A stretch of DNA of 64,000 bases, from positions 248,001 through 312,000 of the forward strand of contig CM074140.1 in assembly GCA_037178625.1 (NCBI GenBank). Direction: 5' to 3'. The notes under the pieces were generated by a model that saw nothing but the letters and a program-made list of their open reading frames with translations, was not told the DNA's origin and ran no database searches. The stretch comes from Skeletonema tropicum (Eukaryota > Bacillariophyta > Thalassiosirophyceae > Thalassiosirales > Thalassiosiraceae). The position numbers were made by a program, and so were the translations under genes. Positions 21,101 to 58,992 of this stretch are shown here, in pieces; the first letter of the stretch is position 1, and each line of letters begins with the position of its first letter.

Positions 21101-21303
21101 GTGATTGTCTCAATACGCCCGATGGCGGCATCTAGAGCATCGTCTGTCACATCTTTTCCTTCCTTTTCAAAGAGCTTTTTGACACCCTTCTTCACAACAG
21201 TCAGCAGAAGATCCGAATGGTCATCATTTGCCCGCACCTTCGTACAGATCTTTGCATTAACTGTTTTCGTGCTCCTATAGAAATGCACGTCAATGAGCAC
21301 CAT
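21085..21303 (-). CDS. Short ORF 1 of the TAA element, copy 2
   Basis: Mirror of 19023-19241 with the same 72 residues. It starts just before the Cys-rich frame and overlaps it by 16 bp. Confidence 0.4.
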   Translation of the reverse strand: MVLIDVHFYRSTKTVNAKICTKVRANDDHSDLLLTVVKKGVKKLFEKEGKDVTDDALDAAIGRIETITCRCV

Positions 21304-24501: not shown

Positions 24502-24847
24502 GGTATTGTTCTATCTTTGCTGTGCATATTATGATTATGATTCAAAGCTATGTAGCTGTCAAGCTGAGTGAGGGAGCGTCAGTAATGATTGAAGAGTATG
24601 TATGAAGAGTATGTAAGTTGTGATGTCTAGTCTAGAGAGAGTAGGAACTAAAACTAAAATAATCTAATTCTACTCTCGTTCTTGTCTTGCCTGCTTGCCA
24701 CTGAAGTAACTATGGGTTCTCAAAAACACTGGGTAAATCCACGACTTTTAGGCAGGCAAGGGCAACTATTCATCAGGTGCTTTGCTTGGCAATTGGCATG
24801 ACAAGTCATTTAAATTCTTTACATCGATCGGTACTATGTACAATTTC

Positions 24848-25181
24848 GAGATCGCTCGATTCCGGTGATGAGAACTTTGGCTTTGGGTTTGGAAGTTGTT
24901 TAAGTTGACGTGATATTATGGTTGCCTGCAGCTGGACATGGACATTTGTTTATTGTAGTAAGTAGTTGTTGAGATGTAGTGTTTATTGACTTGATTGCTT
25001 TTTGATTTTATGAGCGCTTTGCACGAGAGGTGGAGGAGAAGGATGTATGTAGAGTTTGCTCTTGCTTTTTACAGCAACATCATCTTGCTTTGAACCGGTT
25101 CTTGCTTTTATCTGTACCTGTCTTTGTTCTTGCTTTTTAGAGGTGTTTGATTGAGTACTGTTCCGACCTCACAGCACCAAC
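24848..25181 (-). pseudogene. Truncated SDR duplicate, copy 2
   Basis: Inverted duplicate of 15147-15480: SDR promoter, 5'UTR and a broken coding start. Confidence 0.7.
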
Positions 25182-25259
25182 AAGCCACAACAAGCGTTGC
25201 AAATGGCTATATAGGGACATACTTATATTATTTTAGTTATGTACTTAGGTATTGTACAG

Positions 25260-26405
25260 CTACTCTCTCTCTCTCTCTCTTTTAGCCGTCCTCTTATCTT
25301 CGATGCATCCGGTGGCAATCAAGCTTTCTGCCATATCTACGAACGACTTTTCATGTCCAATGTAATCAATGCCCAAAATGTCTACAGCTCGAGTACCATC
25401 ATACACAGCTCCCTTTCCCCACCTATTATATACATAATTCATCTTAGGATCCCAAAGTCTCATGATCATAGGCATAAGCTTGGGCATTTGTTTCGCCCTG
25501 ACAGGGTAATCCTTACCGTACTTTGCCTCGAGTGGCCTGGCAAGTTTCACAATTTCAGGAGAATCGGCACACAAGATGAATCGTTTATCATTTGCCTCAT
25601 CTCGAAGTACGGCCTCGAGGTGTGCCTTAGAAACATCGCGAATATCCACAACTGCAAACTTTAGCTTTGGAAAGATGGGCCACTTTCCCAGCATCAAGTC
25701 TTTTACAAAATCGATGCTTTCGGAAGATCCTGTGGAAACGTTCGGGCCAAAGACAAGCGCTGGATTGATAGTGACAAGTGGAATCTTCTCGTCGTGTGGT
25801 AAGTTGGCAACAAAGCCCCATGCAGCCTTTTCTGCCAAAGTTTTGGACTTTAAGTATGTCGGCATACCTTCTTTCGTAAGGTCCGTCCAATCCTCTTCTG
25901 TGAAGACCTTGCCACTATCCTCGTCCCCTCCCACAATGGCAGCTATGGAGCTTGTTATCACAACCTTCTTCACCTTGTTCTTCTGCGCAGCTTTCATAAT
26001 GGCCAGTGTCCCATCCACAGCTGGCTTGATAATTTCATCCTCATTTTCATACACAGTGCCAATATCGCACACGGGTGAAGCCGTATGAACAATGTAATCA
26101 CAACCCTCCGCCGCTGCCAGGATGGATTGTTCATTCATCAAATCAGCATCGACTAGCTCCAGGCGTGAGAATAACTCAGCGCCAAATCCAAGTCTGAGAG
26201 GTTCAATCTTGCTTTGATTGGCTTTATTTCGGACTGTCCCTCGGACTTGGAATCCGCCGTTCTCGAGGAATGTTTTGCAGACGTAGGATCCGACATATCC
26301 GCTTACGCCGGTGATGAGAACTTTTGGTTTGGAAATTGTTGAAGTTGACTTGATGTTATGGTTGCCTGCATCTTTAGTATTGGAAGTTGACATTGACATG
26401 GACAT
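25260..26405 (-). CDS. Dihydroflavonol-reductase-like extended SDR, copy 2
   Basis: Inverted, protein-identical duplicate of 13922-15067 (381 residues), including the Arg-Glu tail from the GA microsatellite. Here the upstream neighbour is an inverted LTR (26445-26663). The original SDR promoter block found at 9690-9880 is not present on this side, so any transcription would have to start in or near the LTR. Confidence 0.88.
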   Translation of the reverse strand: MSMSMSTSNTKDAGNHNIKSTSTISKPKVLITGVSGYVGSYVCKTFLENGGFQVRGTVRNKANQSKIEPLRLGFGAELFSRLELVDADLMNEQSILAAAEGCDYIVHTASPVCDIGTVYENEDEIIKPAVDGTLAIMKAAQKNKVKKVVITSSIAAIVGGDEDSGKVFTEEDWTDLTKEGMPTYLKSKTLAEKAAWGFVANLPHDEKIPLVTINPALVFGPNVSTGSSESIDFVKDLMLGKWPIFPKLKFAVVDIRDVSKAHLEAVLRDEANDKRFILCADSPEIVKLARPLEAKYGKDYPVRAKQMPKLMPMIMRLWDPKMNYVYNRWGKGAVYDGTRAVDILGIDYIGHEKSFVDMAESLIATGCIEDKRTAKRERERE

Positions 26406-26444
26406 TTGTTTATTGTAGTAAGTAGTTGTTGAGATGTTGTGTTT

Positions 26445-26663
26445 TGACCTACTTGGCTGTATACAGTAAGATTGAAGTGTTCTAACTAAGAGATTATAAT
26501 TATTCTACGGAGGCACCGGTGTCATGGTACCGAAGTTGATGAGTTGATTGAAGTTACAACTGTGAGGAAGAAGGCGACGTGGTAGAAGACACGCACGTGC
26601 AAGTAGATAGAAAAGCTCGATACATAAATACTGTACTATGCCAGTACTCTCTGTACCTCGTCA
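26445..26663 (-). repeat. Inverted gypsy LTR, copy 2
   Basis: Reverse complement of 13664-13882, adjoining integrase sequence as a 3' LTR. No second LTR of this copy remains. Confidence 0.85.
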
Positions 26664-27430
26664 TTGCTGCCCCATGGATCGAGCGTGAAAAGGGATGTAT
26701 CTGTAGGAGTTTTGTAAGGTTTGATCCGTCGAATGTTGATGCGTTCAATAACGCCAGGTCTGATCTGAATAGAAATGTTTCCGTTGACATGAACTTGTGT
26801 AATGGGATAAGGACCAATCCATCGTTCATCAAGCTTGCGAAAAATGTAAATCTTCTTCAGAACTCTATCTCCAACTTTGTAATCATAGGAAAAGCGTTTC
26901 GCATTTGCTCTGATAGCATCCTTGTCGACACGAAGTTGACGACGTTCATTGATCGAATCCATATCAACTTCCAACTTGACGTTGTGAAGCATATCACGTT
27001 GAAAGACCAATGCACCTGGAGAATACCCTGTTGATTCTGAGACATTGCAACGAACTGCGTGTAATGCGGAACCGAGGGCACGTTCAAGAAGCCTGTGAGC
27101 TTCGCTAATAGTCTGACAGATATTGTCCTTCAAGAGGACACGTAGGGAGTTTCCAATAGTGAGATGCATTCTCTCGACAATACCATTGCCGGCAGGATTG
27201 CGGGCAGTAGTGCATGCATGAGTAATAGCCCAATCATAGAGAAGTTCTTGGAATTCTGGGCCAATAAATTCACCTCCATTATCTGATCCACACACCTCAG
27301 GTTTTGGAAAAAGAGAAAGCCAACATGCTTCGAATGCTTGCGCTACTTCTTCGCTAGTCTTCCGAGAGATGATTTTTGCTGTTGGATATCCTGAAGCACG
27401 ATCAATGGAAGCAATAGAATTGCATACTCA
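26636..27430 (-). pseudogene. Integrase core and C-terminus, copy 2
   Basis: Longer than copy 1: upstream of the shared part it keeps the core segment CGSDNGGEFIGPEFQELL (one catalytic Asp plus following residues) and, further upstream, ASIDRASGYPTAKI. The segment NPAGNGIVERMH supplies the conserved glutamate. The N-terminal side is cut near 27420 and fused to reverse transcriptase. Confidence 0.75.
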
Positions 27431-28752
27431 AGTCAAGACACGTGGCAAACTGATACCCATGATGCTTACGCAAAACATCCGTGATGACCGGGAGTGGATA
27501 GTTCTTCCTGACAATGACTTTATTCAATTCTCTCAGATCGCTCACCCATCGGACACGTTGTATCCCAGTGCCAGCCTCCGGCTTTTTCGGAATTATGAAG
27601 GTCGGCAGACTCCACTCTGTAGCACCATGAGCTGGTGCAAGCACTCCTATTTCAACCACTTGATTCAATTCCTTACGAAAAACTTCCAAGTGATTATGAG
27701 GTACCGGATACGGGCGCTTCCAAACTGGACGAGCGTTTGGTTGTAGTTCAATATCCATTTCTTCGTCGTCGAATCTTCCCAATGATCCATCAAAAAGTTT
27801 CTTGTGCTTGACGAGGAGCAGACGCAGTTGTTCCTGCTGCGACGAATTGAGATGCGTGCAATATTCTTTCACGAAGTTATCAAGATTCACCTCCTCGTAC
27901 TTGGCATCTGCAATCTGAGTAGTAAATACGTCGTCACCAATGAAGTCGATATCATCTTCAACTTGAAGACTGTCGATAAGAGTGGAAGTCCTGGGGGCTG
28001 AGCCGTATGAAGACATTGGTAACCGTACTCCAAATGCTTCCACCTCCAAGGAACTCAATAGGATATCTACACCCACTTTCTTCATGAAATCCATTCCAAG
28101 AATAAGATCGAAACGACAGTCGGCAGAGAATACTTGGAATTCATGTGACTGAATAACTGCATTCCTGTTGAACTCGGGAAGGCGAAGACCATCTATCGTC
28201 AATAGACCACTAGGGGACATGAGGCCTGCTGCCGTGCTAACCAATTTCTTCTCCGTCACGAGATCCATCTGAGTACCTTGCGGAAGTACCCTTGAGTGTG
28301 CAAGACTGACATTGGAACCTGTATCTAGCAAGGCTCTGAAATATCTAGCCGTACCCTTGCCTTGAATAGATCGAACTTGGATGATGACCATTGCAAGTGG
28401 AACAGATTTTCCGTCTTGTCCAGTAACAAATACTACATCTGGACCCTGAATGATGTTGATCGAATCGAGAACTTTATCATCCTCCTCAACCTTAAAGAGA
28501 TATTCTTGACCAGTAACTGAGACATCATTGACAAATTCATCCGCCTTGTGCCCTGGATGATTGAGCAACTTGTGGTAGAATTCAATGGTAGGATCAAGCG
28601 TTTCGTCGGTGAGGACAATTTTCCAATACTCATCGGGGTCGTTAGGATCCCTGCAATAAGAGCATAAGTCAATATCTTTGAAGGTCTTCAACTCATAGTT
28701 CAGATTCTGAGGATCATCACATTTCTGACGTAACTCTTGATCTTGGTTTTGA
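27402..28752 (-). pseudogene. Scrambled gypsy pol: integrase linker + protease + partial reverse transcriptase
   Basis: One open frame (28691-27402) reads in an impossible order: a linker and the integrase H-x-H start (FYHKLLNHPGHK), then at about 28550 the protease region (DTGSNVSLAHS), then reverse transcriptase up to TCLDLSMQFY, where it is fused to integrase core sequence. Relative to a normal gypsy pol this is two internal joins. It keeps reverse transcriptase sequence that copy 1 lost (RWVSDLRELNKVIVRK). Confidence 0.75.
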
Positions 28753-29908: not shown

Positions 29909-32900
29909 ATGTACCTGATGTCGACAAGCTATCCAGAGGAGACTAATGGAGCCGGTCATACTGCAGAGCTTGTACGGCAACGCAAGAATGCCTCTATCAG
30001 CCCAGAGGAGAGGGCAGCTCAAAGGGCTAAGGCCGCCGCTAGAGTAAAGCTTTACCGTCAACGCAAGCATGCCTCGATGAGCGCAGAGGAGAGGGCAGCT
30101 CAGAAGGCAAAGAAGGCCGCTGCAGAAAAGATCTATCGTCAACGCAAGAATGCCTCGATGAGCGCAGAGGAGAGGGCAGCTCAGAAGGCAAAGAAGGCCG
30201 CTGCAGACAAGATCTATCGTCAACGCAAGAATGCCTCGATGAGCGCAGAGGAGAGGGCAGCTCAGAAGGCAAAAAAGACCGCTGCGGCAAGGCTTTGCCG
30301 TCAACGCAAGATTGAGTCGATGAGCGCAGAGGAGAGGGCAGCTCAGAAGGCAAAAAAGACCGCTGCGGCAAGGCTTTACCGTCAACGAACGAATGCGATG
30401 AGCGCAGAGGAGAGCATTGGAAAGAGTTGTGATTACGAGATCGTTGTTGACAGAACACATCCAGTCCAACAGGCACGCAATCATGACCAAAAGAAAATAA
30501 TGAGAGTCGATAGCAATCCAAATGCATTTCGCACTGCTGTCTGTGTACTATGCGATAGGCTAATAATTGGGTGTGAGGCTATCCACAAGATAACAGTTGA
30601 TTCGCTTCGTTCTCAGAAAAATAGGATAAGCGTCAAATCCTATGAGGACTACCACCAAGTCACGCTGAAAGATGAGCTTATTTCACAGTATGAAATCAAA
30701 GGCCAAGAGCTCGAAGGCCTTCTGCTATCACCAAGAGCCAAGAAGACCAAGAACAAGAACGGATGTGTAGCATTTGAGGCATGCAGCCAATGTTACAGTG
30801 CGTGGCACAATGATAGCGATTCACCGCCCAAGTATGCCATCAGTAACGGCTTTGCCATCGGCCACATCCCCACGGATATCATTGCCAATGAGGAAATCAC
30901 AGAGCAGATGTGTTCGCTATTAGCTCCTGTCCGCCATTTTGCCTACATATTCGCGTATACAGCTGGTGCTCACAAAGCTATCCGTGGTCACTTTAGCTTT
31001 TTCGAGGTTGATCTTACCCATACTGGTTCTGTAATTAATCACTTCTTGACAACAGGTGCAAACCCGCTTGTTTATGTCGTGTTATGTGGACGAATGACTC
31101 CGAAACAGAAGGAAATAGTGAAAAAAAGAGCAAGGCTTGACACAGAGAAGATGATGGAAATATTAGAATGGTTCGTTAATGAGTCTGGCCACCCAGGATA
31201 TGAAGGAGTTACCGCACCATCACAGTGCCCTCAGCCCAACATTATCGTCGACGAAGAAACACCCAACAATACTGATCAAGAACATGATCCAGATCTAGAA
31301 GCAGAGTTTGCTGGAGCTTCGTTCCACTTTACCAGCATCCATGAGCCGCAAGATGATACAGGAGTTTACGAATCCAACCAGAAGTTTACCAAAGCTATGA
31401 TTGATCGTACAATGCCAACACTTCTGGTCAATGGTAGCAAGTATGCAGATCTTAGAGAACTTCTTCTCGAGAATATTGCGCCACTGCAATTTCCTTTTGG
31501 TCAAGGGGGGCCAAAGGCAAAGCGGAGGACTCACATATCTCCGGTGGAATGCTATCGTTACTACTGCCGACTCTCGCTTCCTCAATTCATGAGGGGGGAC
31601 TTTCTCCTCTTGCTGAACCACATGTTCAATCGGCAGCGCAGTTACGAGACAGCCGTGGTCACTTGCAAATCCAGTTTATTCGGCCAGTCACTTGCCGAGA
31701 AGATGTCAAAACTCAAAATGAAAGACCTCGATCAGGCATTGTTTCAAAAACAAACCCGCCAAAGGGTAAATGGAACGGCTGGAGAATACATCAGGGCAGT
31801 GGAGGCAGCGTGCAAACCAGTCGGGTACACTGCTTTGAGTGCCAAACAAAATCGCCGCAAGCATTTCGCAATGGATAACTACTTCGGAAGCCATTCCATT
31901 TTCTTAACTACGACTCCATGTGATGAATGCACCATCAGGGTCCAAGTCTTCGCCAACGCTGGCAAGGAGGTGGTGCTGCCAAATCTTGGTGTCTGGGATG
32001 ACGAAGACCACTTGAAAGAATGTAGATTCAACTTTGAGCTGAGAAAGGAGACCAGACGTCTGTATCCAGGGGCATGTTCTCTTGTTTACCAGCATTTGAT
32101 GCAGATTATTACAGAATGTTTGATAGGTTGGGACCCAAAGAAACAAACAGGGCGACTAGGCGTGTTCGGAGTACCAATAGCGTACTCAAGAACTGACGAA
32201 GAGCAAGGCAGGAAGACACTTCATAGTCACTGGCAAATATGGGTAAAAGACTTCAACAAAATTAGAGATGCTCTATTTCATAGTGATGACAGAAAAAAGA
32301 AAGCCGCAAGGTATGCTCTCATATCATACATTGACAAAGTTGTCTGTGCCAGCTATGGGACTGATTTTGTTGTGACTCACAATTGTGATGAAGATAGCCC
32401 TGTTACGATGCCTATGCACGAAATACTCCAGGAGGTAGAAGATAAGAATATCCTTCGTAAAGCACATCACCAGGATCATTGCCTTGATGTTAAGGGCAAA
32501 GTATTGGAATGCAAACAGTGTGGGAAAACATTTTCGCCATCAGAGTGTATTAACATGGGTATTAGTCACTTACGTCAAAAAACACTTCAAGTTCAAGATC
32601 ATGCAGATAGCAGTAAAGAAGACGCACCAGACTCTTCAACAAAGATGAAAAAGGAATGGCTCGATCAAGCAGCGATTCGCTACCCTTTTGATTTTGAAGA
32701 GGAAGGAAGTCCTACTGAAGCGCTGAAACAACAACACATCATAATGGATGCGGACGGAGACGGAGATGGAGCCAACGAACAAGAACAAGTAACTCATGAA
32801 TGGCTACATGATAGAAACCTACGCAGGGACCTCCTGCATCTTGTTTTTGACGAGCATGATTATACACATCGGGGAACATGTTTCAAGGGTGGGAAAGCAG

Positions 32901-35900
32901 AATGCAGAGGGCATTTGCCAGAGATGGCAAGTGAAGATTCCATCATTTTCGACAATGAAGCCATAGCTGCCGTGAAAGAAGGCCTGAGAGACGATGATCA
33001 TCGCAACACAAGCGACGCCAATGGGGTCAAGGTCATCCTTCACCACCATCTGAATGGTGAGGTAGAAGAAAAATCTCAGTATGCAATCTTACCGAAAAGA
33101 CAGAATGGCAGTCAGTTTCTCAACCAACACAGCTTGGCGATTTCAGATGTTATTGGAAGCAATACCAATGTAACACTGGGTGATTGGAGCCACTCCTATT
33201 ACACCACGCTGTACAAGTCCAAAGACACACAATCCGAAGACAAGATGGCATACCGTCGAGTCCATGCCTCAATGGCCAGAAGGCTGTATAGAGCACATGA
33301 ACACCAGCAACATCGAGATCGACAAGAAAATGAGGAGAAGGAGGAGGAGAGAATGCAGAACCAGCCAGCAGAAGATATCACAGCCACAGCTCTAGCAGAA
33401 GGCAGCACAACCACAGACAAAGATGACGACGAAGAAGAACGTGCATGCTATATTGAAGGGCTCGGGAGAATAATTACTGGAGTGAACGCACTTCTTTCCA
33501 GAGACGTTGTAAGCTCCACTATGGCTCACTTACTCATCTCCCAAGGGGGAGAAAGATTCACTTACTCACATGATTTCTCACACATTTCAGTGCAGAATGT
33601 GGAGAATGTGCTAGAAGAGAAGGAAGGCATGCATTTCCGTTTGCGGAGGAATTGGAATGACGACACAAAGGAAACAATTGCATGGGCTGATTGCGCGGCT
33701 TATGACTACATTCACAGGCCAACCGAGCTCAACAACTTGTGCCTTTACGAGTACACAATGTGGTACAAAAAGGAATACAAGAGCTTCAAGCAATTGAACG
33801 CCAGGAGCAAAAGCACTACTACCACATCCTACAAGTTTGCCGACCTCCATCAAGGTCAAAAATATTGCTACCTTACGAGACGAACACATCCAGTCATTCC
33901 CATCATATACATGGCCACAGACCTTTGCGACGTGAAGTCATTAGATGTGCTTGAGGATATCCCCAACAGTGGAACTGTGCAGCACAGAGAAAGGTATGCA
34001 AAAACAGCAATGCTGCTATTCTATCCATTCAGCAAAGCAGAAGATCTGGTGAAGAATGGGACCTACTGGCAAAAGTTTGTTGATGTAGGAGGGACGAAAG
34101 AGTATAGTGAAGCGATCATCGACGACACACTTGGTTTGAATCCATTGTCAAAACAATTTTGGAACCGCGGTAGGATGATTCTGGAAAACATTGAAACGAG
34201 GCGCATGGCCGAAAAGGAAATGAAACGTCCCAAAAGCAAGATCACATACTTGACGGACACTCCAAAGAGTACTGGGAAACGAAAGAGAGAAAACGTGGAC
34301 AACGATGATGGATATGATATTGACATAAGTGACTTCTTTGATAATATGAATGACGAGGGTTTACAACAATTCCAAGCCTTAGAATCACGGCCACTTTCTG
34401 ACGCCGACCTCAGGTCTCATGCCAAGATAATGAAAAGAGCAAATGTTCGCGCATGTAGCGCTATCAAAACTCACGTTGATGACAATGTGTCCGTACTTGC
34501 AACTGCAAACAAGCCATCGACATCAACCACAAATTCAGAGCACACTCAAAACAACGTCGACGCCAACAATCATCAACAGCAGCAGTCTGCATCCTACAAT
34601 GTTCGTGTCCGATATGAGGACATCCTCACTTTCATTCAAGGATCTTTGCTTGTTAGTAGCAGTGATGAAGGTACCTTTGATAGAGACATGGATGATGGAG
34701 ATGAAGATGGAGATGGAGATGGAGAAGAACCTTCATCGTTAAAGTTAAGGCAGCAATGTCTCAAACAGATTCCCACCATGTACGAGATTGCAAGGGGCAA
34801 GAGCAGTAAGTACAACCTCGACAACAAACAATTTATTGCCTATCAAATAGTGTGTTGTACATTTCTGCTCCAGCTCGTCATGGAAAGAGATCACTATGAT
34901 ACCAAGCTTGGAGAATTGCTAGGAGCAACGCTCGGTCCCTTGGCGGAAAGCGTGCAACATACAAAAGACAGTCTAGTCCGGGATCTCAAAGCAAAGGGAG
35001 GAAAGGAGCACCTCGTTATGTTCATCACAGGTCCCGCTGGTTGTGGCAAGAGTACAACTATGGAAGCAGCCCAATACTACTGTCACAGATTTTGCACTGC
35101 TATCGCAACCGCCTTCAATGATTATACCTTCTACTTCACTGCAACGACTGGGTCAGCTGCAGCTCTCTTTGGAGGAACAACAATCCACAGCGCAGCCCAC
35201 TTGAACAAAAGTAGGATCAATGATGAGATGAGGGCTATTTGGCGCGATGATGTGCGAATCCTCATTATTGATGAAATATCTTTTTTCAAGGCAAACGATG
35301 TCGTAAAACTTGACAAACAGCTGAAAAAGCTGACAGGCCGATATGAAATGGTTTATGGGGGGGTTTCAATAGTCTTCTCTGGAGACTTCCACCAACTGAA
35401 GCCAATCTGTGCAGAAGATGATGTCCTCTACTCAGACTCCGATGCAGCTTCAATTTGGGAGAATACTATCAACTGTGCCATCTTTCTTGATAATAGCCAC
35501 AGATTCAAAGACGACCCCGAGTTTGGGGAAATACTCGCTAGAATGAGAATAGGGGAGGATACACGTGAAGATAGAGAGCTAATAAACAAGCGTGTCGTCA
35601 GCACTAGTACTAGCTCCACTTCCACTCTAACATTGCCCGAACACGCACCTGACGCATGTTTTGCATGCTCTACCAACAAAGAACGAAATGGCGTCACGGC
35701 AGCATCATTCAAAATGCACATCGATGAATCGCATCCTACCATTGATGACGATAGCCCACCTCCTGATCACACTCTCATAATTGAGGCATCAGTATCTATA
35801 TCCAAAACGACTGAGAATGAAAACGGCAACAGCAAGAAGAGGAAACGAAGGCAGCGTATAAAAGTTTCCGCGCATTTCCATGACACTGTCATCACGCAGC

Positions 35901-36577
35901 TGGGAGATGATGACATAAGGTCAACCGAGTTTGCAGCAAAAGGAGCTAAAATCGAGCCTGCCCTACGCATCTACCCCGGATCCCACCATATGTGCATAAC
36001 GAATGAGGATCTTGACCAAGGGCGAGGCAACGGGACTCTTTGCAAGTGCTTGAAAATCAAACTTAGAAAGGATGGGCGGGAGAGGAGGTGGAAAAATTGG
36101 GATGGAAAGAAGGTATGGACTGTGTCGGTTGACGACGTCGAGTGGGTGGAGTTCGAGCATTACCCAACCACCGGCACCAAAGCACGGACCTTCAAGCTCA
36201 AACCACAAGAATTCTCAGCCACAATCAAGTTCCCTCTGACTGAAACAATCAGTACAACCATCGGCAACGCCAAGGTCAAACAGGTTCCTGTCAACTCTAA
36301 CATAGCAACAACAGGCCACAAGCTCCAGGGAATGTCCAAAGACATCCTCATCGTCAATGACTGGAATTATCGATGCGTGAACTGGGTCTACGTTGTCTTG
36401 TCGAGGGTGAGAACACTAGCTGGACTGTATCCGATGAAACCCTTAGACCTGGAACGCGGCTTCAATATTCCTCAAAATCTCATTCGCTTCGAGCAACGTT
36501 TGAAGGACACCAAAGAACGACCAGTTCTCGACATGTTGGGTTACCAATCAAATGCAGAGATCGATACAATGCAGTGA
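29909..36577 (+). CDS. Helitron Rep-helicase (2222 residues)
   Basis: A single uninterrupted frame. Residues about 22-160 are five or six near-identical 27-residue repeats (RQRKNASMSAEERAAQKAKK), highly basic and helical. A Cys pair follows in VCVLCDRLIIGC. A domain around 340-410 (FFEVDLTHTGSVINHFLTTG, then NPLVYVVLCG) resembles the DUF6570 region found in Helitrons. The HUH endonuclease shows GRKTLHSHWQIWV with H772 and H774, and the nicking tyrosines are most likely Y802 and Y807 in YALISY. The C-terminal PIF1-type SF1 helicase has Walker A GPAGCGKST (G1708-T1716), Walker B LIIDE (D1788, E1789) and a C-terminal HKLQGMS motif. It would nick and unwind its own ends. With no stop or frameshift it may be active. 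Confidence 0.9.
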   Translation: MYLMSTSYPEETNGAGHTAELVRQRKNASISPEERAAQRAKAAARVKLYRQRKHASMSAEERAAQKAKKAAAEKIYRQRKNASMSAEERAAQKAKKAAADKIYRQRKNASMSAEERAAQKAKKTAAARLCRQRKIESMSAEERAAQKAKKTAAARLYRQRTNAMSAEESIGKSCDYEIVVDRTHPVQQARNHDQKKIMRVDSNPNAFRTAVCVLCDRLIIGCEAIHKITVDSLRSQKNRISVKSYEDYHQVTLKDELISQYEIKGQELEGLLLSPRAKKTKNKNGCVAFEACSQCYSAWHNDSDSPPKYAISNGFAIGHIPTDIIANEEITEQMCSLLAPVRHFAYIFAYTAGAHKAIRGHFSFFEVDLTHTGSVINHFLTTGANPLVYVVLCGRMTPKQKEIVKKRARLDTEKMMEILEWFVNESGHPGYEGVTAPSQCPQPNIIVDEETPNNTDQEHDPDLEAEFAGASFHFTSIHEPQDDTGVYESNQKFTKAMIDRTMPTLLVNGSKYADLRELLLENIAPLQFPFGQGGPKAKRRTHISPVECYRYYCRLSLPQFMRGDFLLLLNHMFNRQRSYETAVVTCKSSLFGQSLAEKMSKLKMKDLDQALFQKQTRQRVNGTAGEYIRAVEAACKPVGYTALSAKQNRRKHFAMDNYFGSHSIFLTTTPCDECTIRVQVFANAGKEVVLPNLGVWDDEDHLKECRFNFELRKETRRLYPGACSLVYQHLMQIITECLIGWDPKKQTGRLGVFGVPIAYSRTDEEQGRKTLHSHWQIWVKDFNKIRDALFHSDDRKKKAARYALISYIDKVVCASYGTDFVVTHNCDEDSPVTMPMHEILQEVEDKNILRKAHHQDHCLDVKGKVLECKQCGKTFSPSECINMGISHLRQKTLQVQDHADSSKEDAPDSSTKMKKEWLDQAAIRYPFDFEEEGSPTEALKQQHIIMDADGDGDGANEQEQVTHEWLHDRNLRRDLLHLVFDEHDYTHRGTCFKGGKAECRGHLPEMASEDSIIFDNEAIAAVKEGLRDDDHRNTSDANGVKVILHHHLNGEVEEKSQYAILPKRQNGSQFLNQHSLAISDVIGSNTNVTLGDWSHSYYTTLYKSKDTQSEDKMAYRRVHASMARRLYRAHEHQQHRDRQENEEKEEERMQNQPAEDITATALAEGSTTTDKDDDEEERACYIEGLGRIITGVNALLSRDVVSSTMAHLLISQGGERFTYSHDFSHISVQNVENVLEEKEGMHFRLRRNWNDDTKETIAWADCAAYDYIHRPTELNNLCLYEYTMWYKKEYKSFKQLNARSKSTTTTSYKFADLHQGQKYCYLTRRTHPVIPIIYMATDLCDVKSLDVLEDIPNSGTVQHRERYAKTAMLLFYPFSKAEDLVKNGTYWQKFVDVGGTKEYSEAIIDDTLGLNPLSKQFWNRGRMILENIETRRMAEKEMKRPKSKITYLTDTPKSTGKRKRENVDNDDGYDIDISDFFDNMNDEGLQQFQALESRPLSDADLRSHAKIMKRANVRACSAIKTHVDDNVSVLATANKPSTSTTNSEHTQNNVDANNHQQQQSASYNVRVRYEDILTFIQGSLLVSSSDEGTFDRDMDDGDEDGDGDGEEPSSLKLRQQCLKQIPTMYEIARGKSSKYNLDNKQFIAYQIVCCTFLLQLVMERDHYDTKLGELLGATLGPLAESVQHTKDSLVRDLKAKGGKEHLVMFITGPAGCGKSTTMEAAQYYCHRFCTAIATAFNDYTFYFTATTGSAAALFGGTTIHSAAHLNKSRINDEMRAIWRDDVRILIIDEISFFKANDVVKLDKQLKKLTGRYEMVYGGVSIVFSGDFHQLKPICAEDDVLYSDSDAASIWENTINCAIFLDNSHRFKDDPEFGEILARMRIGEDTREDRELINKRVVSTSTSSTSTLTLPEHAPDACFACSTNKERNGVTAASFKMHIDESHPTIDDDSPPPDHTLIIEASVSISKTTENENGNSKKRKRRQRIKVSAHFHDTVITQLGDDDIRSTEFAAKGAKIEPALRIYPGSHHMCITNEDLDQGRGNGTLCKCLKIKLRKDGRERRWKNWDGKKVWTVSVDDVEWVEFEHYPTTGTKARTFKLKPQEFSATIKFPLTETISTTIGNAKVKQVPVNSNIATTGHKLQGMSKDILIVNDWNYRCVNWVYVVLSRVRTLAGLYPMKPLDLERGFNIPQNLIRFEQRLKDTKERPVLDMLGYQSNAEIDTMQ
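29968..30405 (+). repeat. 81-bp coding minisatellite in the Helitron gene
   Basis: In-frame tandem units of 81 bp around 'gagcgcagaggagagggcag', five to six copies, the central ones nearly identical. Copy-number change would keep the frame and only lengthen or shorten the basic N-terminal region. Confidence 0.85.
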
Positions 36578-36917
36578 AGAGTTTTACTATTACTAGTACG
36601 ATAATCAGAAAGTTCATAAGAAGAAACTGCTCAGCAGATTGTAATTGTAGTAAGAAAAAACAGGCTCTTACAGGCTCTGCGCTCTGTAAGGCAAAGAACA
36701 GTTCTTCACATGTTGGCATACTGATCAGCACCAATCTCATAATCATATAATAACAACTAGAGAATACATTATACAGATAAACCTTTTGGATCTACGAAAG
36801 CACCTACCCAAAAAACAAGTGCTCTATTATGCTCACTTTTATGCAGCAAGAGAATTTCGTTCAGCAAGAACAGAAGCACGAAAGCCGGGAGAAGCTTGCC
36901 CTGCCGCCGCACGCCAA
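36578..36917. other. 3' non-coding end of the Helitron
   Basis: 340 bp between the stop codon and the insertion boundary. Near the end 'gggagaagcttgccc' could form a short stem, but I see no convincing hairpin of the usual Helitron kind. No gene. Confidence 0.5.
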
Positions 36918-37101
36918 TTTATGTATCGAGCTTTTCTATCTACTTGCACGTGCGTGTCTTCTACCACGTCGCCTTCTTCCTCACAGTTGTAACTTCAATC
37001 AACTCATCAACTTCGGTACCATGACACCGGTGCCTCCGTAGAATAATTATAATCTCTTAGTTAGAACACTTCAATCTTACTGTATACAGCCAAGTAGGTC
37101 A
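36918..37101 (+). repeat. Right part of the split LTR, copy 3
   Basis: Matches the LTR from 'tttatgtatcgagc' to its CA end (13699-13882). With 29336-29371 it restores one 219-bp LTR. Confidence 0.85.
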
Positions 37102-37140
37102 AAACACAACATCTCAACAACTACTTACTACAATAAACAA

Positions 37141-38286
37141 ATGTCCATGTCAATGTCAACTTCCAATACTAAAGATGCAGGCAACCATAACATCAAGTCA
37201 ACTTCAACAATTTCCAAACCAAAAGTTCTCATCACCGGCGTAAGCGGATATGTCGGATCCTACGTCTGCAAAACATTCCTCGAGAACGGCGGATTCCAAG
37301 TCCGAGGGACAGTCCGAAATAAAGCCAATCAAAGCAAGATTGAACCTCTCAGACTTGGATTTGGCGCTGAGTTATTCTCACGCCTGGAGCTAGTCGATGC
37401 TGATTTGATGAATGAACAATCCATCCTGGCAGCGGCGGAGGGTTGTGATTACATTGTTCATACGGCTTCACCCGTGTGCGATATTGGCACTGTGTATGAA
37501 AATGAGGATGAAATTATCAAGCCAGCTGTGGATGGGACACTGGCCATTATGAAAGCTGCGCAGAAGAACAAGGTGAAGAAGGTTGTGATAACAAGCTCCA
37601 TAGCTGCCATTGTGGGAGGGGACGAGGATAGTGGCAAGGTCTTCACAGAAGAGGATTGGACGGACCTTACGAAAGAAGGTATGCCGACATACTTAAAGTC
37701 CAAAACTTTGGCAGAAAAGGCTGCATGGGGCTTTGTTGCCAACTTACCACACGACGAGAAGATTCCACTTGTCACTATCAATCCAGCGCTTGTCTTTGGC
37801 CCGAACGTTTCCACAGGATCTTCCGAAAGCATCGATTTTGTAAAAGACTTGATGCTGGGAAAGTGGCCCATCTTTCCAAAGCTAAAGTTTGCAGTTGTGG
37901 ATATTCGCGATGTTTCTAAGGCACACCTCGAGGCCGTACTTCGAGATGAGGCAAATGATAAACGATTCATCTTGTGTGCCGATTCTCCTGAAATTGTGAA
38001 ACTTGCCAGGCCACTCGAGGCAAAGTACGGTAAGGATTACCCTGTCAGGGCGAAACAAATGCCCAAGCTTATGCCTATGATCATGAGACTTTGGGATCCT
38101 AAGATGAATTATGTATATAATAGGTGGGGAAAGGGAGCTGTGTATGATGGTACTCGAGCTGTAGACATTTTGGGCATTGATTACATTGGACATGAAAAGT
38201 CGTTCGTAGATATGGCAGAAAGCTTGATTGCCACCGGATGCATCGAAGATAAGAGGACGGCTAAAAGAGAGAGAGAGAGAGAGTAG
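37141..38286 (+). CDS. Dihydroflavonol-reductase-like extended SDR, copy 3
   Basis: Protein-identical to copies 1 and 2 (381 residues). Upstream are 39 bp of 5'UTR and the split LTR, so its transcription start region is LTR sequence with the Helitron behind it. Confidence 0.88.
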   Translation: MSMSMSTSNTKDAGNHNIKSTSTISKPKVLITGVSGYVGSYVCKTFLENGGFQVRGTVRNKANQSKIEPLRLGFGAELFSRLELVDADLMNEQSILAAAEGCDYIVHTASPVCDIGTVYENEDEIIKPAVDGTLAIMKAAQKNKVKKVVITSSIAAIVGGDEDSGKVFTEEDWTDLTKEGMPTYLKSKTLAEKAAWGFVANLPHDEKIPLVTINPALVFGPNVSTGSSESIDFVKDLMLGKWPIFPKLKFAVVDIRDVSKAHLEAVLRDEANDKRFILCADSPEIVKLARPLEAKYGKDYPVRAKQMPKLMPMIMRLWDPKMNYVYNRWGKGAVYDGTRAVDILGIDYIGHEKSFVDMAESLIATGCIEDKRTAKRERERE

Positions 38287-38365
38287 CTGTACAATACCTA
38301 AGTACATAACTAAAATAATATAAGTATGTCCCTATATAGCCATTTGCAACGCTTGTTGTGGCTTG

Positions 38366-38699
38366 TTGGTGCTGTGAGGTCGGAACAGTACTCAATCAAA
38401 CACCTCTAAAAAGCAAGAACAAAGACAGGTACAGATAAAAGCAAGAACCGGTTCAAAGCAAGATGATGTTGCTGTAAAAAGCAAGAGCAAACTCTACATA
38501 CATCCTTCTCCTCCACCTCTCGTGCAAAGCGCTCATAAAATCAAAAAGCAATCAAGTCAATAAACACTACATCTCAACAACTACTTACTACAATAAACAA
38601 ATGTCCATGTCCAGCTGCAGGCAACCATAATATCACGTCAACTTAAACAACTTCCAAACCCAAAGCCAAAGTTCTCATCACCGGAATCGAGCGATCTCG
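38366..38699 (+). pseudogene. Truncated SDR duplicate, copy 3
   Basis: Direct duplicate of 15147-15480 with no informative differences. Confidence 0.7.
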
Positions 38700-39044
38700 A
38701 AATTGTACATAGTACCGATCGATGTAAAGAATTTAAATGACTTGTCATGCCAATTGCCAAGCAAAGCACCTGATGAATAGTTGCCCTTGCCTGCCTAAAA
38801 GTCGTGGATTTACCCAGTGTTTTTGAGAACCCATAGTTACTTCAGTGGCAAGCAGGCAAGACAAGAACGAGAGTAGAATTAGATTATTTTAGTTTTAGTT
38901 CCTACTCTCTCTAGACTAGACATCACAACTTACATACTCTTCATACATACTCTTCAATCATTACTGACGCTCCCTCACTCAGCTTGACAGCTACATAGCT
39001 TTGAATCATAATCATAATATGCACAGCAAAGATAGAACAATACC

Positions 39045-39539
39045 ATGGCGTCTGCATTGATCGTAGACGTAGACTTCCCTCCTCTCAGACTCAACCATGA
39101 CGTTGTGCGATTTGCTGAAACAGCACAGCTTTACATAATTGATCGGCACGAAGACCAGAACGAGCTGTGGTAGAACAAGGCAGAATACAACTCAATGAAA
39201 CGTGATATAAGGCGAGATGTCCTACAAGCTCGTGCAAGAGACTCGGCTTCAGATTCCGAACAAGATAGTGGCTTCTGGATTGGTATTTCTCATCTACTCT
39301 CACCGGCCTGTACGTTCTGCTCTTTGATGTACTTTTGCTGATCATATGCGAAAGTCGTACCACTGTGGCTCAGTGGTACGACTTTCGCATATGATCAGCA
39401 CGTTCGAGGTGCAGGCCTGCAGACGTCGATGTAATATCCTTCGTTAGCGGAAACAAGGAGGGCCGTATTGAGAGCTAGGAAGCTTGGAAGACTTCACCAG
39501 GATTTCATAAAAGAATATTGTAGTCAATCTTCTCGTTAA
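39045..39539 (+). pseudogene. Small-gene relative with nonsense codon, copy 3
   Basis: Direct duplicate of 15826-16320 with TAG at 39171-39173 and the intron hairpin at about 39337-39399. One base near 39122 differs from copies 1 and 2. Confidence 0.7.
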
Positions 39540-40793
39540 GGTCGTGTGTATAATAATATAACAGAAATTTTAAAGTACGTCTGATGAGCCCTCTCTAGGG
39601 GCGAAATTATGACTAACCAACATGTGTGCTGCGTCGTCAGTATTGATACTTCATATAATTATTGTACAAGTTAGAATATGCCAGAGTGCTCGTCAAATTG
39701 AGATTGTATACTCTAATCAATATCAATCATCTCTAATGTGACATTTTTACTGTTCTACTATCTTTTACAAAGTATCTTCAGTCCTACACGGTGACATTTC
39801 CATTTTGTGACTTACTGCTGTGTAGCAGCATATACCAGACCAAACAACTTGGAGAAGTCAAGATCAATATGCTCCAAAGCTGATTTATCATATTCCTCGT
39901 CTTCGAAATCTTCCAAAAATCAGCCATCAGGAGATCCGTATGAAACTCATAGACACTCCTGTTCGTCGCTTGACGATAGTGGATCCTTTTAAGCTCTCTT
40001 TTAAGCTTGTAGGTGTAGGAGACATATCGGGCTCCTCAGACTGAACACAGCCCTTCGGACAACGGGGATAGAATAGTAGAGGTACGGGTTCTTGTTTCAA
40101 TGATTACAGTTCTTTTGTACTCAGGGACCAGTGTCGATTTCTATCGGCTCTGGGGAGTAGGTGCAGTAGTTGTGTGCACTGACGCTGCCCTATTTACAGG
40201 CCTGGATTGGCAAGCGCAACAAGCACTATGTACTTCTAACTTCTCTTCTCATACAAGTACATACATCCAATAACGTCAACAAACAAAATGGCAAGCGTGA
40301 GAAGCTGTTCCGCCGCCCGCACCGAATTTTGAGAACTCGAGAATTCGATATTTGCAAAAAGGAAGTCAGTCAATAACGATCGGAGTAAAGAATTTAAAGA
40401 CTCCTCATCGGTTAAGTAAAATGTGTCACGTCAAATGAGGAGAAGAACATCACAAAGGATTCCAAGGTGAATTTAAACGCGCTGACAAGTCACAAGTACC
40501 GAGGAACGACGTGAAAATGCGTGGGCGCGTGGCCGCAAAACGGCTTTCAGCAAGGAACAAGAAGGAACAGCCACGTCCTTACGAGCGAAGTGTAGGTACA
40601 AAAGTTCAGAGCGCAGTGAAGTGGCTATGTTAAGTACAGCGAGCGAGCAGCAGACCTGTATTACATTGAATTATCTCTCTAGAGAGCAACGAGGTGTAGA
40701 GAGGCAATTTCACATTCACAACTCTTCCTCACATCGGTATCAACATCAACTTTCGACATTGAATACTACTTATCACCACACAGTCTACAGAAA

Positions 40794-41642
40794 ATGACGA
40801 AAATCAAGAAGTTACTAACCTCAACCTCAGCTCAGTATCGTCCTTACACGGCGTATAATGTATTCTTCCAGCTCGAACGAGAGTTCATACTCCAAAGCAT
40901 TCTTGATGTGACGCCTTCTGTGGACACTGTATTCGACCAAGCTGTTGATGATGTGACCCATGCTACCTCAAAAGTACCAAGAGATTATCCTCTCCTATGA
41001 CTGGTACATTCCAGGAAAGGCTCAACGCAAGAAGAGGAGACATCGGAAGAGCCACGGCAAGATTAGTTTCAGTGGTAAGTAGCTGTTGCCTTCCCCACTG
41101 CACCATCACATCCCAATGTGTATTGATCGTTTATGCTTATGCCCCAATTTTTGCAAGCAGATCTCTCCAAGAAAGTGGCCACATCTTGGCATAACGCTGA
41201 TGATGAGGTAAAACTATTTTGCAACGAGGTATCAGGTATCTTAATGCAGGAGTACAAGAAGGCTCTTGACCGCAAGAGGAAGGATGGCATCAATAATGGT
41301 AAAGAGGAGTTATCGCCCCAATCACATGGAACTAAGGAAAATAGTGACAAGAAGCAGAAAAGTCTATGCAATACCTTGCCACCAAGTAAAGTAGTGGTAG
41401 CATCCTCAACCTCAATAGCAGCAGAGGAAGTTGGCATCAATCAAATCATCTCTTCCACAACCCCAGCTACAGTCACCCCAGCTCCTAGTACGTCAACGGC
41501 GACTAGTGTTTTAGATACATTGGTAGAAATTACCTCTTGGTCATCGCTCTTGCTCCCTTCATATCATTATAATCATTGTTCTACCAGACAAGTCGATATT
41601 GACGACGACGTCATCAGGGACATGTGGATGGCTTGTGATTGA
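40794..41642 (+). pseudogene. HMG-box gene, copy 3, frameshifted in exon 1
   Basis: Exon 1 40794-41074, intron 41075-41160, exon 2 41161-41642. A 2-nt deletion near 40956 (GATGTGACCC where the others have GATGTGATACCC) shifts the frame after VDDV and ends it at 40998-41000. The splice sites and exon 2 are otherwise intact. The product would be a 68-residue fragment lacking the second half of the box. Confidence 0.8.
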
Positions 41643-41969
41643 ATTGTAGACATTGAAGCAGATGCGCATGTAATGTATAGAGCGCAATAGGCTTATGAAC
41701 TGGATAATTATAATGACTTGAGTAAAAGCGATCTCTTTGGACTCTAGCTCTAGCAATCTCTTTGCCCTTCTTGGGCATTCGTTACTCCTATCAATCTATC
41801 TCAAACGCACGGAACATTTCCGATTCCGAATTCCGAACAGACATGAATTTTGAGTCGATGAGAAGGAGAATGACTTCTCACTTTTGACAACATTTTGATT
41901 ACCGCACGTGATGCCGCGCAAATTCAGGTGTATGTCATTTTGACAACTTTTTGATTACCGCACGTGATT

Positions 41970-41972
41970 TAA
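41970..41972. other. Empty target site (TAA) of the TIR element
   Basis: Reads GATTTAATGG without interruption, where copies 1 and 2 have the 1.4-kb element between duplicated TAA. This fixes the element ends and the size of the target duplication. Confidence 0.9.
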
Positions 41973-54720: not shown

Positions 54721-55229
54721 GTAATATTCATTCTGCTTTACGTGGATACAAGAGATTTCTGAACTATCGCAAGCCCCTCTCCATACAATCCAGGATTGTA
54801 TCGCTTCGGCTGCTAACATCATGATTTCTGCTTTTGGAATCAAATGCAGCCTTCGCCTTCACATCAATGTCGCAGAACTTCCTGTGTCTTTTCCAGTCGG
54901 CCTTTTGACATTCACTCGAACAGTAGTTTACCTCGCCACATCGTGCACAACAGAACATCTTGCAGCGTTCTACAAAATGGCCCGGCCTACTACAGTTTGG
55001 GTTGTGACACCAGCCCAACTTCTTGACGCACTTGACTTCTTTGTATTTCTCGTCCAAGCAGGCACACGGAATGCGCTTCCTGTAATATGCAACAAGTGTG
55101 TGATCGTCGGCGCCATCCAGTTCAATTATCTTTGTCCAATTAAAGACAGCTTTAGTTTTGAGCATCTTGACTGCTGTCCATTCCTCAAAAAAGCAGACCA
55201 CTGTAGCGGAGACGCGAGCAGTATCAGTG

Positions 55230-55541
55230 CAAGGGAATAACTATGGGGGTCAAACGTGCCGTTCCCGCCAGAATGACATTCGAGAAATTTTTTGACGCTT
55301 CAAAAAGGGGTCAATTCGTCACGCTAACTAACACCGTGTTAATTAACCTTTCGACATGGCACTACAATTCGATCGAGCTCTTCCAATGGACCAATTCAAT
55401 GGCAGAACCTTGCTCTACACTCGTAGCCCCACCACTCTAGCCCTTATTTGGCCGTCATAGCTGCTATATTCGCCGAGAACGAGACCCTCGAAAATTCCCA
55501 ATTGTGGCCGACGCCGAAATCCACCACTTTTAAACATGTCG
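55230..55541 (+). repeat. Left terminal inverted repeat with promoter of gene A
   Basis: Pairs with 58238-58560. Homology runs through the leader ('ccaccacttttaaac') and includes the ATG and next two bases of gene A. The repeat thus holds the complete upstream region of that gene. It contains 'cgtcacgctaactaac' and a GAGAACGAG word that could be promoter elements. Confidence 0.85.
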
Positions 55542-56915
55542 GAGTCTTCTGATACAGATAATGATTCGGATGATGAATTTGACCCCATCGACGTCTACTC
55601 AATGGATCTCTTCGACCGAGCAGCGACTGCATCGGACATTCGAGAGAAAATTAGGGGGCATCCAACCTTCGTGAGTATGCGAAGTTTTGCCGAGAAGGAT
55701 TGTTGTTTGCTTAATGCAGAGCAGATTGATGCAGCTCTTGACGTGAAACATGTGAATTGGGATGATTTCCATACGAAAGTGCTAGAATCCATTGTAGAGC
55801 ACAAGGGGAAGAACAAAACAAGCGCAACCCGTAATGCAGGTGGCCATGTGAACAAATGCACCGAATTGAAGAAGGTCATATCTAGAAATAATACTCCTGA
55901 GTTTGCTAGAAAGAGCGAGCATCATTTAACCGAGTGGAGGAGCGCTGTTTTCACGTTCGCATGTTTATTCATTTAGGAACTTGAACGCAGTGCCAATAAG
56001 GCCATAGACGATTTATCAAAAAAAATTGATACAATTCTGGCGACGGCATGGGAGCCGCTTAATGATATTCATGCAGAGACAATATATTACATCGTCGGCG
56101 CTATGCTAGAAGCGGCGAAGCAGAAGATGGAGGATAAGAGGACAAGCGATGCCCTGAGACATTCTCTAGGTGTGCTAATAAAACTACAGTCTTGTTCGAA
56201 GGAAGAAGCAACAGCAGCCGGGGCACCAACACGACGTGTTGCAGACCGCGAGGCTGTCTCCCTCAGATATGCCTCAAACGAATTATATGGTGTTGTATGC
56301 AAATATGAGTCTGTATTTCGGGCAGTGCTCAATGATGATGACATACAGATGCATGGAGAGGGTGTGTTAAGAGCTGTGAGTAGACTGTTGAGTCAGAAGG
56401 ATGTAGGGTTGAAAGATCTTCTGGACACTTGGGTGGACGAAAACGAAGTAACGAAGTTGTCCGTCTTTCTATTGAATTATTACACAGGCCTTCGTGGGAA
56501 AGATTTCGTAAAGAAACAAAATTCCCAAGTTGTAAGGACTGGAGAAACTCATCGAGCTACAATTGGTGTGATACATGATCTGAGAAAGAAGGAACATGCG
56601 AATGCAAGAGCAGCCGAAAAGGAGTCTAATGAAGAGCACGAGGGGCACGGGGGAGGTGATGGAGAAGACTCGCCGTCAATGTCAATGTTGAGAGACCAAC
56701 TCGTAGCACTTTGCAAGCAATATGGCTTGCCCTATTCAGGTAAGAAAGAAATACTGCTTGGGCGCATTCTAGAGCATATGCAGACGGAGAAGGACAAAGA
56801 CCAGTCAAATGAATTGGAGTCTGAGAATGCAGATGAAATGGAGTCTGATGTTGTGGCGGCTATAGATACATTTGAGAAGGAAGTGTACGAATCATCATAC
56901 GGCGAGGAGGAATAG
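55536..56915 (+). CDS. Gene A of the two-gene element: SAP-domain protein
   Basis: One frame with a single TAG at 55974-55976, which coincides with a strong acceptor (TTTATTCATTTAG/G), so an in-frame intron ending at 55976 is likely. Possible donors are at 55875 (102 nt) or 55848 (129 nt). Without the intron the frame would be 459 residues plus the stop. The N-terminus is very acidic (SESSDTDNDSDDEFD), the middle is helical (YYTGLRGKDFV around 56485), and a SAP DNA-binding helix pair, LRDQLVALCKQYGLPYSGKK, lies at 56690-56790. The C-terminus is acidic. SAP domains bind AT-rich DNA. A recombinase function cannot be shown. Confidence 0.7.
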
Positions 56916-56952
56916 AATGAATAAGAATAAAATTATATGAATTAGTACCAAA

Positions 56953-58243
56953 TCATTTCCGCCTTTTGCTTTTCCTTTTCCGGCTTTTGCTTTTACTTTT
57001 CCGCCTTTTGCTTTTACTTTCCCGTTTGATCTTTCCAACATCCAGTTCATTGCTATAATATGTTGTCTTCTGTCCTACATTGCCGTTTCTACTAGCAGCC
57101 AAATTTGATATGATACCACCATGTAGACCAGCCATGATGTGGTCTGTATCTTTCTTAGATGCATTTGGATTTGCATTTCGACTCAAATTGAAAGTCGTTT
57201 CGCACGGATCTGACCCAAGGTGCATTTGGTTTATTGTGTGCCCTGGATGCTTCGGTAAATAATGTAGAGCGAGCACCACCGGCCCAAATGAAGTCCAACA
57301 GTTCGTAAAGTTTATATTGCTTTCGGAAACATGCCCCACACAGCTGTTTGCCTTCAAGTTTTGCACCCGAACAATCCCTATGACTGAACGCATACGTAAC
57401 AATGTTTGGATCGTCATCGACTTCGATGCACTTCCATGTAAACGGGGGTTCATCTTCGGCGTCATCTTCATCATTCTTCTTGGCGTTGTGATTTACGATA
57501 AAGCCTGCAACATCACGCCCATAGGGCCATACACACCGATTGTTTGATAAGTAGCTAGCCTTGTAGCGAAAGACATTCCCCACCAAGTGATTGAATCCAT
57601 CATTCACTTTATCCTTGTCTTTAATGTTGGTTCCATCTATGGTGAACGTTGAAATTCCCCGACATTTGGTGGAGTCAACTGGTTGATACGTTATCGTCTC
57701 CTCGTGTTCTACCTCCAGCGGATCAGTTGGTCGATGAAAAAGCGGTGGTGAGGAAACGCCTTCTCCCCCCGGGACAAGCCGATCTACTTCATTGTCATCC
57801 CCTCCCCCGCCCTCTTCCCTATCCACTCTCCTCTTTTTGGCTGTACTAACTTTATTCGGCGGCGATGCATACTGCTGTTGACTGCCGTCCTTTGCAGGAA
57901 CATCATCGCTGTGCTCCTCTTCCACACTAGCTCGACCACTAGCACGACGTCTTCTTGAGGTCCTTTTCGCCTCCTTCCTTTGCTGCTCCTCGGCCTGATC
58001 AATTTTGTATTGCTGATCACCCTTGCCTATCTTTCTCCATTCTCGCACTCGCTCGGCAGACGTCAAGTAAGTTATAGGTGGATGGAGTTTACCATATTTT
58101 TTGTCATAAGGAAAGAGTTTGACGAGGATATTCTCTTCAACCCCTACCCAATTGAGGCTCTCGAACCGATCAGTATTCCCTGCCAGAATTCCTTGGAGTT
58201 GTTTGAGCGACAAGTCCTTTGCCAGTTCGTCTCCGGCGGACAT
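56953..58243 (-). CDS. Gene B of the two-gene element, Cys/His protein with basic tail
   Basis: Starts at 58243, the ATG inside the right TIR (MSAGDELAKDLSLKQ). The first frame is open to 57155 (362 residues): a helical N-terminus, a basic Arg/Lys block (KRTSRRRRASGRAS), and a fold with STFTIDGTNIKDKDKVNDGF, NNRCVWPYGRD, SHRDCSGAK and LCGACFRKQYKLYELLDF. Beyond about 57270 the overlapping second frame looks more coding-like (LHYLPKHPGHTINQMHLG, HIMAGLHGG) and ends in a Lys/Arg/Ser tail at 56953. A frameshift, or an intron I could not place, probably joins them near 57260-57290. The Cys/His pattern suggests metal binding. Not recognised. Confidence 0.65.
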
Positions 58244-58560
58244 GTTTAAAAGTGGTGGATTTCGGCGTCGGCCACAATTGGTAATTTTCAAGGGCCTCGT
58301 TCTCGGCGAATATAGCAGCTATGACGGCCAAATAAGGGCTAGAGTGGTGGGGCTACGAGTGTAGAGCAAGGTTCTGCCATTGAATTGGTCCATTGGAAGA
58401 GGTCGATCGAATTGTAGTGCCATGTCGAAAGGTTAATTAACACGGTGTTAGTTAGCGTGACGAATTGACCCCTTTTTGAAGCGTCAAAAAATTTCTCGAA
58501 TGTCATTCTGGCGCGCCCCGCGTAAATCAAGCACGTTTGACCCCCATAGTTATTCCCTTG
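58238..58560 (-). repeat. Right terminal inverted repeat with promoter of gene B
   Basis: Inverted partner of 55230-55541, ending with the ATG of gene B. The 33-bp block near its tip ('gattacgcggggcgc'-like) replaces 22 bp at the left tip. Confidence 0.85.
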
Positions 58561-58992
58561 ATCAGTGTTTCCATCGAGAATGCTTTGAGTACCACCTGCC
58601 AATAGCGCTGAAATAACTACTTCCAATTTGGAAGAATAGATGTAGGCATATTCTTCTAATGTGGCTTGGTGCGCTGCATTGAACGCATATCCCACGCGCA
58701 AACTGGGTTGTGAATGAAGTGTGGTAATGAATGCGTCGATAAAATCTTGAAGAATCTTCGCAAATTCAGGACCACCATGATCACACTTTTCGAGATAACG
58801 ATAATTGACAGCATTTACTTCCAGTTGTTGCAACTGTGCATCAAGCGATCTCTCCTCCTCCTGCCGCTGATCGGACGACGCTTCAACTTCTTTAACCACT
58901 GCCTTGCTCTCTTTGGCTTCTTTCTTCTTGGCTTTTGCTTCTTTGGCCGCCTTTCGCGCCTTGCCTTTGGCCTTCTTCCTCCTCCCCGGCAT

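Follow-up and report, generated by a model that had tools for sequence, protein, structure and literature searches.

What kind of element splits the MYND-finger gene at this locus of Skeletonema tropicum, and how does it move? The insert occupies 55230-58560 (3,331 bp) of the window, by which we mean the whole 64,000-nucleotide stretch analysed, and carries two convergent genes, A and B, with start codons at the inner edges of its terminal inverted repeats (TIRs). A sequence-only reading of this DNA had seen no known transposase pattern in either protein and had proposed a new superfamily or a non-autonomous carrier of two cargo genes. The element and its surroundings have the following features.

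54764..58992, minus strand: frame of the host MYND-finger gene, split by the element
55223..55229, no strand: target duplication ATCAGTG, left copy
55230..55540, plus strand: left TIR on the gene-A side, the "short" end, with the core CAGAATGA 39 bp from the tip
55536..56915, plus strand: gene A, a SAP-domain frame of 459 codons with one in-frame TAG
55974..55976, plus strand: premature stop (TAG) in gene A, where copies C3 and C5 have GAG
56688..56798, plus strand: SAP domain of gene A (PF18953, E 5e-8)
56956..57303, minus strand: what is left of the C-terminus of the putative transposase, with the SDPCE motif and basic tail, in a different frame from the N-terminal part
57296..58243, minus strand: gene B, 316 N-terminal codons of the putative transposase still in frame (Cys/His region)
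57298..57301, no strand: junction of an internal deletion, with ACAG on both borders
58239..58560, minus strand: right TIR on the gene-B side, the "long" end, with the core CAGAATGA 50 bp from the tip
58561..58567, no strand: target duplication ATCAGTG, right copy

The TIRs, about 311 bp (left) and 322 bp (right) in length, pair through a perfect 30-bp tip, a short unequal stretch and then a 275-bp arm at 99% complementarity. The ATG of gene A is at 55536 and that of gene B at 58243, leaving 306 and 317 bp outside, respectively; these are the lengths at which the inverted ends had been put. Both ATGs fall in sequence common to the two TIRs. Because both genes start inside a TIR, the same sequence precedes A and B, which bears out one half of an earlier proposal of a duplicated promoter; that this shared sequence acts as the promoter of both genes is plausible. 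The ATCAGTG duplication flanks the element as had been described. Removal of the element and one duplication in silico restored a host frame of 299 aa, open throughout, with a recognizable MYND finger (PF01753, E 1.3e-7), in agreement with the claim that an open MYND frame had been interrupted. The uninserted paralog that had been noted is likewise real: relatives of the MYND gene without the insertion lie on the same contig, and the four longest of them (the gene itself excluded) are 66-71% identical.

Elsewhere in the window, positions 13084-27243 form a near-perfect palindrome, with 7,038-bp arms (13084-20120 and 20207-27243) that are 99.93% identical and lie 86 bp apart; it is either a real inverted duplication or an assembly artefact. 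About 5 kb of the palindrome recurs at 36917-41972 (99.8%), and for this reason a 381-aa NAD-epimerase-like gene is present three times. An open frame of 2,222 aa at 29909-36577, flanked by copies of the duplicated segment, matches PIF1 helicase (7e-13), DUF6570 and, weakly, Helitron_like_N; it encodes a Helitron-type protein. Frames for retroviral-type aspartyl proteases (PF13650, PF00077) at 12088-13197 and 27402-28391 mark the outer edge of both palindrome arms and are probably a piece of a retrotransposon.

We searched the host assembly (78.4 Mb, 125 contigs) for other copies of the element. The left 331 bp gave 30 matches, and the 19-bp tip with up to 2 mismatches gave 44, as compared to 0 for a reversed-pattern control. 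The two ends were compared in 14 copies, which together account for 27 of the 44 tip hits; the count does not include the partial copies on C12, C15, C6 (1.64 Mb) and C2 (0.63 Mb). An exact 7-bp duplication was found at nine of the 14, and all nine are different: ATCAGTG (C14, the window copy), GTACGAC (C22), CTTTTAC (C14b), CTCCCAT (C19), ATTGGGC (C5), GTAGCGA (C117), CCAGCAG (C2), AGCAACC (C6) and CTGGAAG (C4b). In this small sample, position 2 is T in seven duplications and position 6 is A in five. The TIR matches, the excess of tips over the control and the nine different duplications identify a mobile element rather than a chance arrangement, as the sequence-only reading had supposed. Its view that the element moved fairly recently is supported by the sister copy on C5, which is 99.0% identical to the window copy over 3,338 bp.

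The other five copies (C9a, C8, C3, C4a and C9b) have no 7- or 8-bp duplication. One tip is damaged in each of C9a and C8, and the tips of C3, C4a and C9b are intact; the latter three may be recombinant, since Galileo copies with non-matching 7-mers were chimeric. Among the 17 further tip matches, 11 were read as short stretches; three of these proved to be lone long ends belonging to a second, diverged family, and eight have no core motif. The remaining six are five sites of a tandem array on C106 and one site on C8. Some copies have had histories of their own. The C2 copy (L021:3587-4950; C2:1822586-1823949) has kept its duplication and is missing almost an entire TIR; at the damaged end, some 15 bp of tip sequence are fused to transposase sequence. 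The C117 copy (L018/L019, C117:41162-51423) is split by a 7.8-kb insertion within one TIR. At C106:104059-123869, six near-identical tip-like sites (CAAGGGAATAACTAAGGGG) with about 4 kb spacing make up the tandem array; the one site read has no core motif, and the array may be unrelated to the transposon.

The nature of gene B became apparent from the copy on C3 (L012; 4,808 bp), which holds about 2 kb extra at window position 57298-57301. Alignment of the two copies showed that the borders of the deletion share the 4-bp ACAG. The window and C5 copies have this same deletion and sit at different 7-bp targets. In C3, exon 1 of gene B consists of 528 codons plus one base and exon 2 ends at 4205; a 71-bp GT..AG stretch (L012 2492-2562) lies between them, and the joined product has 1,075 residues. 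Splicing over this putative intron is the predicted route to a complete protein. Similarity stops at the predicted donor in 10 of 13 partial database proteins (P0016-P0028), and P0001 spans the splice site without a gap. C3 is the only copy seen with a complete gene B; its 7-bp duplication is absent and part of its gene A is missing. Because gene B of the window copy runs out of frame after 316 codons, this copy cannot make a full transposase, and it is a non-autonomous internal-deletion derivative. Gene B had been described as a Cys/His protein with a basic tail. The Cys/His region is there; the tail is the C-terminus of the putative transposase, in another frame behind the deletion.

A database search with gene B returned four relatives out of 5,891 scored candidates, and a four-protein profile returned 14 proteins out of 7,987. 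P0001 is 61% identical to gene B. The motifs of the C3 protein (D520, D671, D789-x2-H792, D993, E996) come in the order given for P (D230, D303, D528, E531) and Galileo, and its predicted parts are a Cys/His region at the N-terminus, an HTH region of the P type and an RNase H-type core carrying the D, D, D-x2-H and E motifs. When the four first relatives were tested, PF21787 was matched by P0003 (2.1e-12), P0004 (1.3e-12) and P0001 (2.2e-4). Among 17 aligned relatives, at E <=0.05, PF12017 (P-type HTH) was matched by 14 (best 3e-6), PF21787 by three and PF21788 (GTP-binding insertion) by three (best 2.9e-4, below the curated cut-off). The element's own exons gave sub-threshold Pfam matches only (PF12017, E 0.067) and none to PF21788. 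In the PDB, the relatives' profile ranked P transposase 6p5a first (E 0.0021; next match E 0.6), with an alignment covering the DGATEN and HP...H..K..RN regions; single gene B exons did not match P transposase. No THAP domain was found at E <=1 in the two C3 exons, the window frames and P0001-P0004, or at 0.05 among the 17 aligned relatives. Nothing was drawn from structure models, because those of the B relative P0001 (mean pLDDT 50) and the A relative P0006 (mean pLDDT 56), each with 0 Foldseek matches at E <=0.001, were too weak. By tblastn, no gene B relatives were confirmed in viral contigs and no gene A relatives in viral contigs or prokaryote genomes. Judged by its relatives, gene B is a probable P-like transposase that has lost its catalytic middle in the window copy, and the statement that neither protein shows a transposase pattern can no longer be upheld for B. 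A match of this kind to a known transposase such as P is what the sequence-only reading had named as grounds for giving up its proposal. At C15 (L045:2880-5006), amid two copies of an unrelated gene, lies a degenerate relative of the transposase (about 40% identity, frames broken) with no recognisable TIRs and no gene A.

Gene A contains the SAP domain that had been recognized in it. Its TAG codon reads GAG in the C3 and C5 copies, thus no intron is needed, and an intron in gene A was dropped as a candidate. The C8 copy has the TAG as in the window copy. Gene A has a frameshift beyond the TAG site in C5, an early frameshift in C9a and, in C3, an in-frame deletion that takes out the SAP domain. 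Four 2.2-kb copies (C22, C14b, C19 and C4a) have another pair of deletions in common, and A and B are both intact in none of the 10 copies translated. A database search with gene A gave 11 relatives among 7,994 scored candidates, 41-61% identical, all of which match SAP (E <=0.05); one is named Skeletonema marinoi. In the second family (C6, C9b and C4b), gene A remnants adjoin a TIR in all three copies, and no gene B relative was found in the stretches read. Given the 11 SAP relatives and these remnants, gene A is a recurrent part of such elements, and most likely it encodes an accessory protein of the element with a DNA-binding or regulatory role. As the SAP protein of a P-like transposon, it looks new. 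In one open-licence library we found no account of a SAP domain with a diatom transposon or a P-element transposase, or of the P superfamily among diatom transposable elements. At C18 (L046:4179-4580) lies a sequence distantly related to gene A (about 27% identity, E 2e-14), perhaps a host gene or part of an older element.

The two ends of the element are unequal, the shared core CAGAATGA being 39 bp from the tip at the short end and 50 bp at the long end. One short and one long end were found in 8/8 measurable copies with a target duplication, which are not eight independent trials because the copies share descent. The ninth duplicated copy, C2, was excluded since it has lost one TIR; the end that remains is of the long type, extended by 10 bp to a reading of 60. 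The short side reads 41 in C5 and 43 in C4b because of small insertions near the tip. Among the copies without duplication, C3, C9a and C9b are short/long, C8 has a short end cut by 12 bp plus a long end, and C4a is long/long. Between the two families, the TIR interior and about 11 bp after the tip have diverged and both spacer sequences are conserved. Gene A adjoins the short end in the first family, except in C117, where it adjoins the long end, and the long end in 3/3 copies of the second. The C117 pieces, 7.8 kb apart, were counted as one copy, which is supported by the GTAGCGA common to both. Recombination between TIRs would flip the interior and might explain this switch in orientation. 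Unequal ends of 39 and 50 bp look new, and pairing may require one end of each kind.

We are highly confident that the element is an internally deleted, non-autonomous cut-and-paste transposon whose gene B, as far as homology can tell, shares the catalytic core of P-element and THAP9 proteins. In the proposed mechanism, transposase from a copy with an intact gene B would pair two element ends, excise the element and insert it elsewhere with a 7-bp stagger. Where repair ended prematurely and the strands were rejoined at a short homology, here ACAG, deletion derivatives would result, which could still be moved in trans. The SAP protein of gene A, read towards B from the opposite TIR, would act as an accessory or regulatory protein. 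The new superfamily proposed by the sequence-only reading, with A, B or both as an unrecognised transposase, now seems very improbable. The weak scores of the element's own proteins against known families, the missing THAP domain and the 7-bp duplication speak for it, but relatives of B match both the sequence of the P structure and three Pfam models for P transposases, and Galileo, within the P superfamily as described in the cited sections, already joins long TIRs with 7-bp duplications. It was dropped once the missing middle part of the transposase had come to light in the C3 copy. Interest remains in the P-like lineage lacking THAP, in the SAP gene that converges on gene B and in the conserved pairing of a short with a long end. 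The carrier of two cargo genes fared better in part, as the element is non-autonomous, although B is the probable transposase and not cargo. We regard it as unlikely that the element captured gene A from a host as cargo or carries it as a passenger outside the transposition machinery. No examined copy keeps A intact, and within the 9 kb read at C18 the distant relative is accompanied by no recognised transposase, as would suit a passenger; however, the 11 SAP-bearing database relatives and the remnants beside a TIR in 3/3 second-family copies argue against it.

The short/long difference itself may have been inherited by chance with no role in pairing, an explanation to which we give slightly less than an even chance. 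The copies are related by descent, the ends differ in both the length and the sequence of the spacer, so that the two are confounded, and C4a has two long ends. On the other side, every measurable duplicated copy has one end of each type in either gene orientation, the two families kept both spacers alike while their TIRs diverged, the long/long copy C4a is one without a duplication, and P ends likewise differ (9 and 21 bp in the cited sections). Beyond the P-like transposon that we prefer, a bolder interpretation is tentative and somewhat doubtful at present: a THAP-less, two-gene branch of P-like elements in diatoms, in which the transposase would act jointly with a SAP protein expressed from the opposite TIR, under a rule of one short and one long end that is kept despite a flipped interior. 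The two spacings under this rule differ by 11 bp, about one helical turn, like the 9/21 of P and the 12/23 of RAG. If true, it would add to the diatoms a P-like lineage with a second gene not seen for P or Galileo in the cited sections. It would also give, in two families that keep the same two spacers despite diverged TIRs, another natural example in which to ask why unequal ends are paired by P and by RAG-type recombinases.

Other known systems invite comparison with the element. MuDR, En/Spm and PIF/Harbinger elements carry, besides the transposase gene, a second gene for a DNA-binding-type protein. They share the two-gene layout and differ in having unrelated transposases and other duplication lengths. 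The Dada superfamily, named in the sequence-only reading beside P as a known transposase, has a Dada-type transposase and inserts into multicopy small-RNA genes; at Rfam gathering scores no RNA family was found in the window, and the insertion target here is a MYND protein frame.

The closest comparisons are with P, THAP9 and Galileo, as described in the cited sections of PMC7776569, PMC2775673, PMC4168063, PMC3573991, PMC3688188, PMC12477816 and PMC1562414. P and zebrafish THAP9 elements have duplications of 8 bp, TIRs of 31 or 13 bp and a THAP domain, which is stated for all P transposases in PMC1562414, a paper whose cited part does not treat diatoms. Our element resembles them in the catalytic-core homology seen through the relatives of gene B, in internally deleted non-autonomous copies and in two end spacings, those of P having been likened in review to the 12/23 V(D)J recombination signals; residue D528 of P lies at the GTP. 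Our element differs in its 7-bp duplications, TIRs of more than 300 bp, second convergent gene and lack of a THAP match. Galileo has TIRs of up to about 1.2 kb, 7-bp duplications with the consensus GTAGTAC, deletion derivatives, copies that are chimeric and lack matching duplications, and a transposase with a THAP domain and D, D, D-x2-H, E motifs. The long TIRs, the 7-bp duplications, the deletion derivatives and the motif order are shared by our element, whose duplications also tend towards the second and sixth letters of that consensus, T and A. Its TIRs are shorter and unequal by 11 bp, its gene B has no THAP match, and it has gene A, whereas no second gene is described for Galileo in the sections cited. 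Because its duplication is not 8 bp and no THAP domain was matched, we do not file the element as a classic P and, for the latter reason, not as Galileo. The relatives of gene B place it in the broad P-like group with a TNP-like core, and it would work like a P/Galileo cut-and-paste transposon with deletion derivatives.
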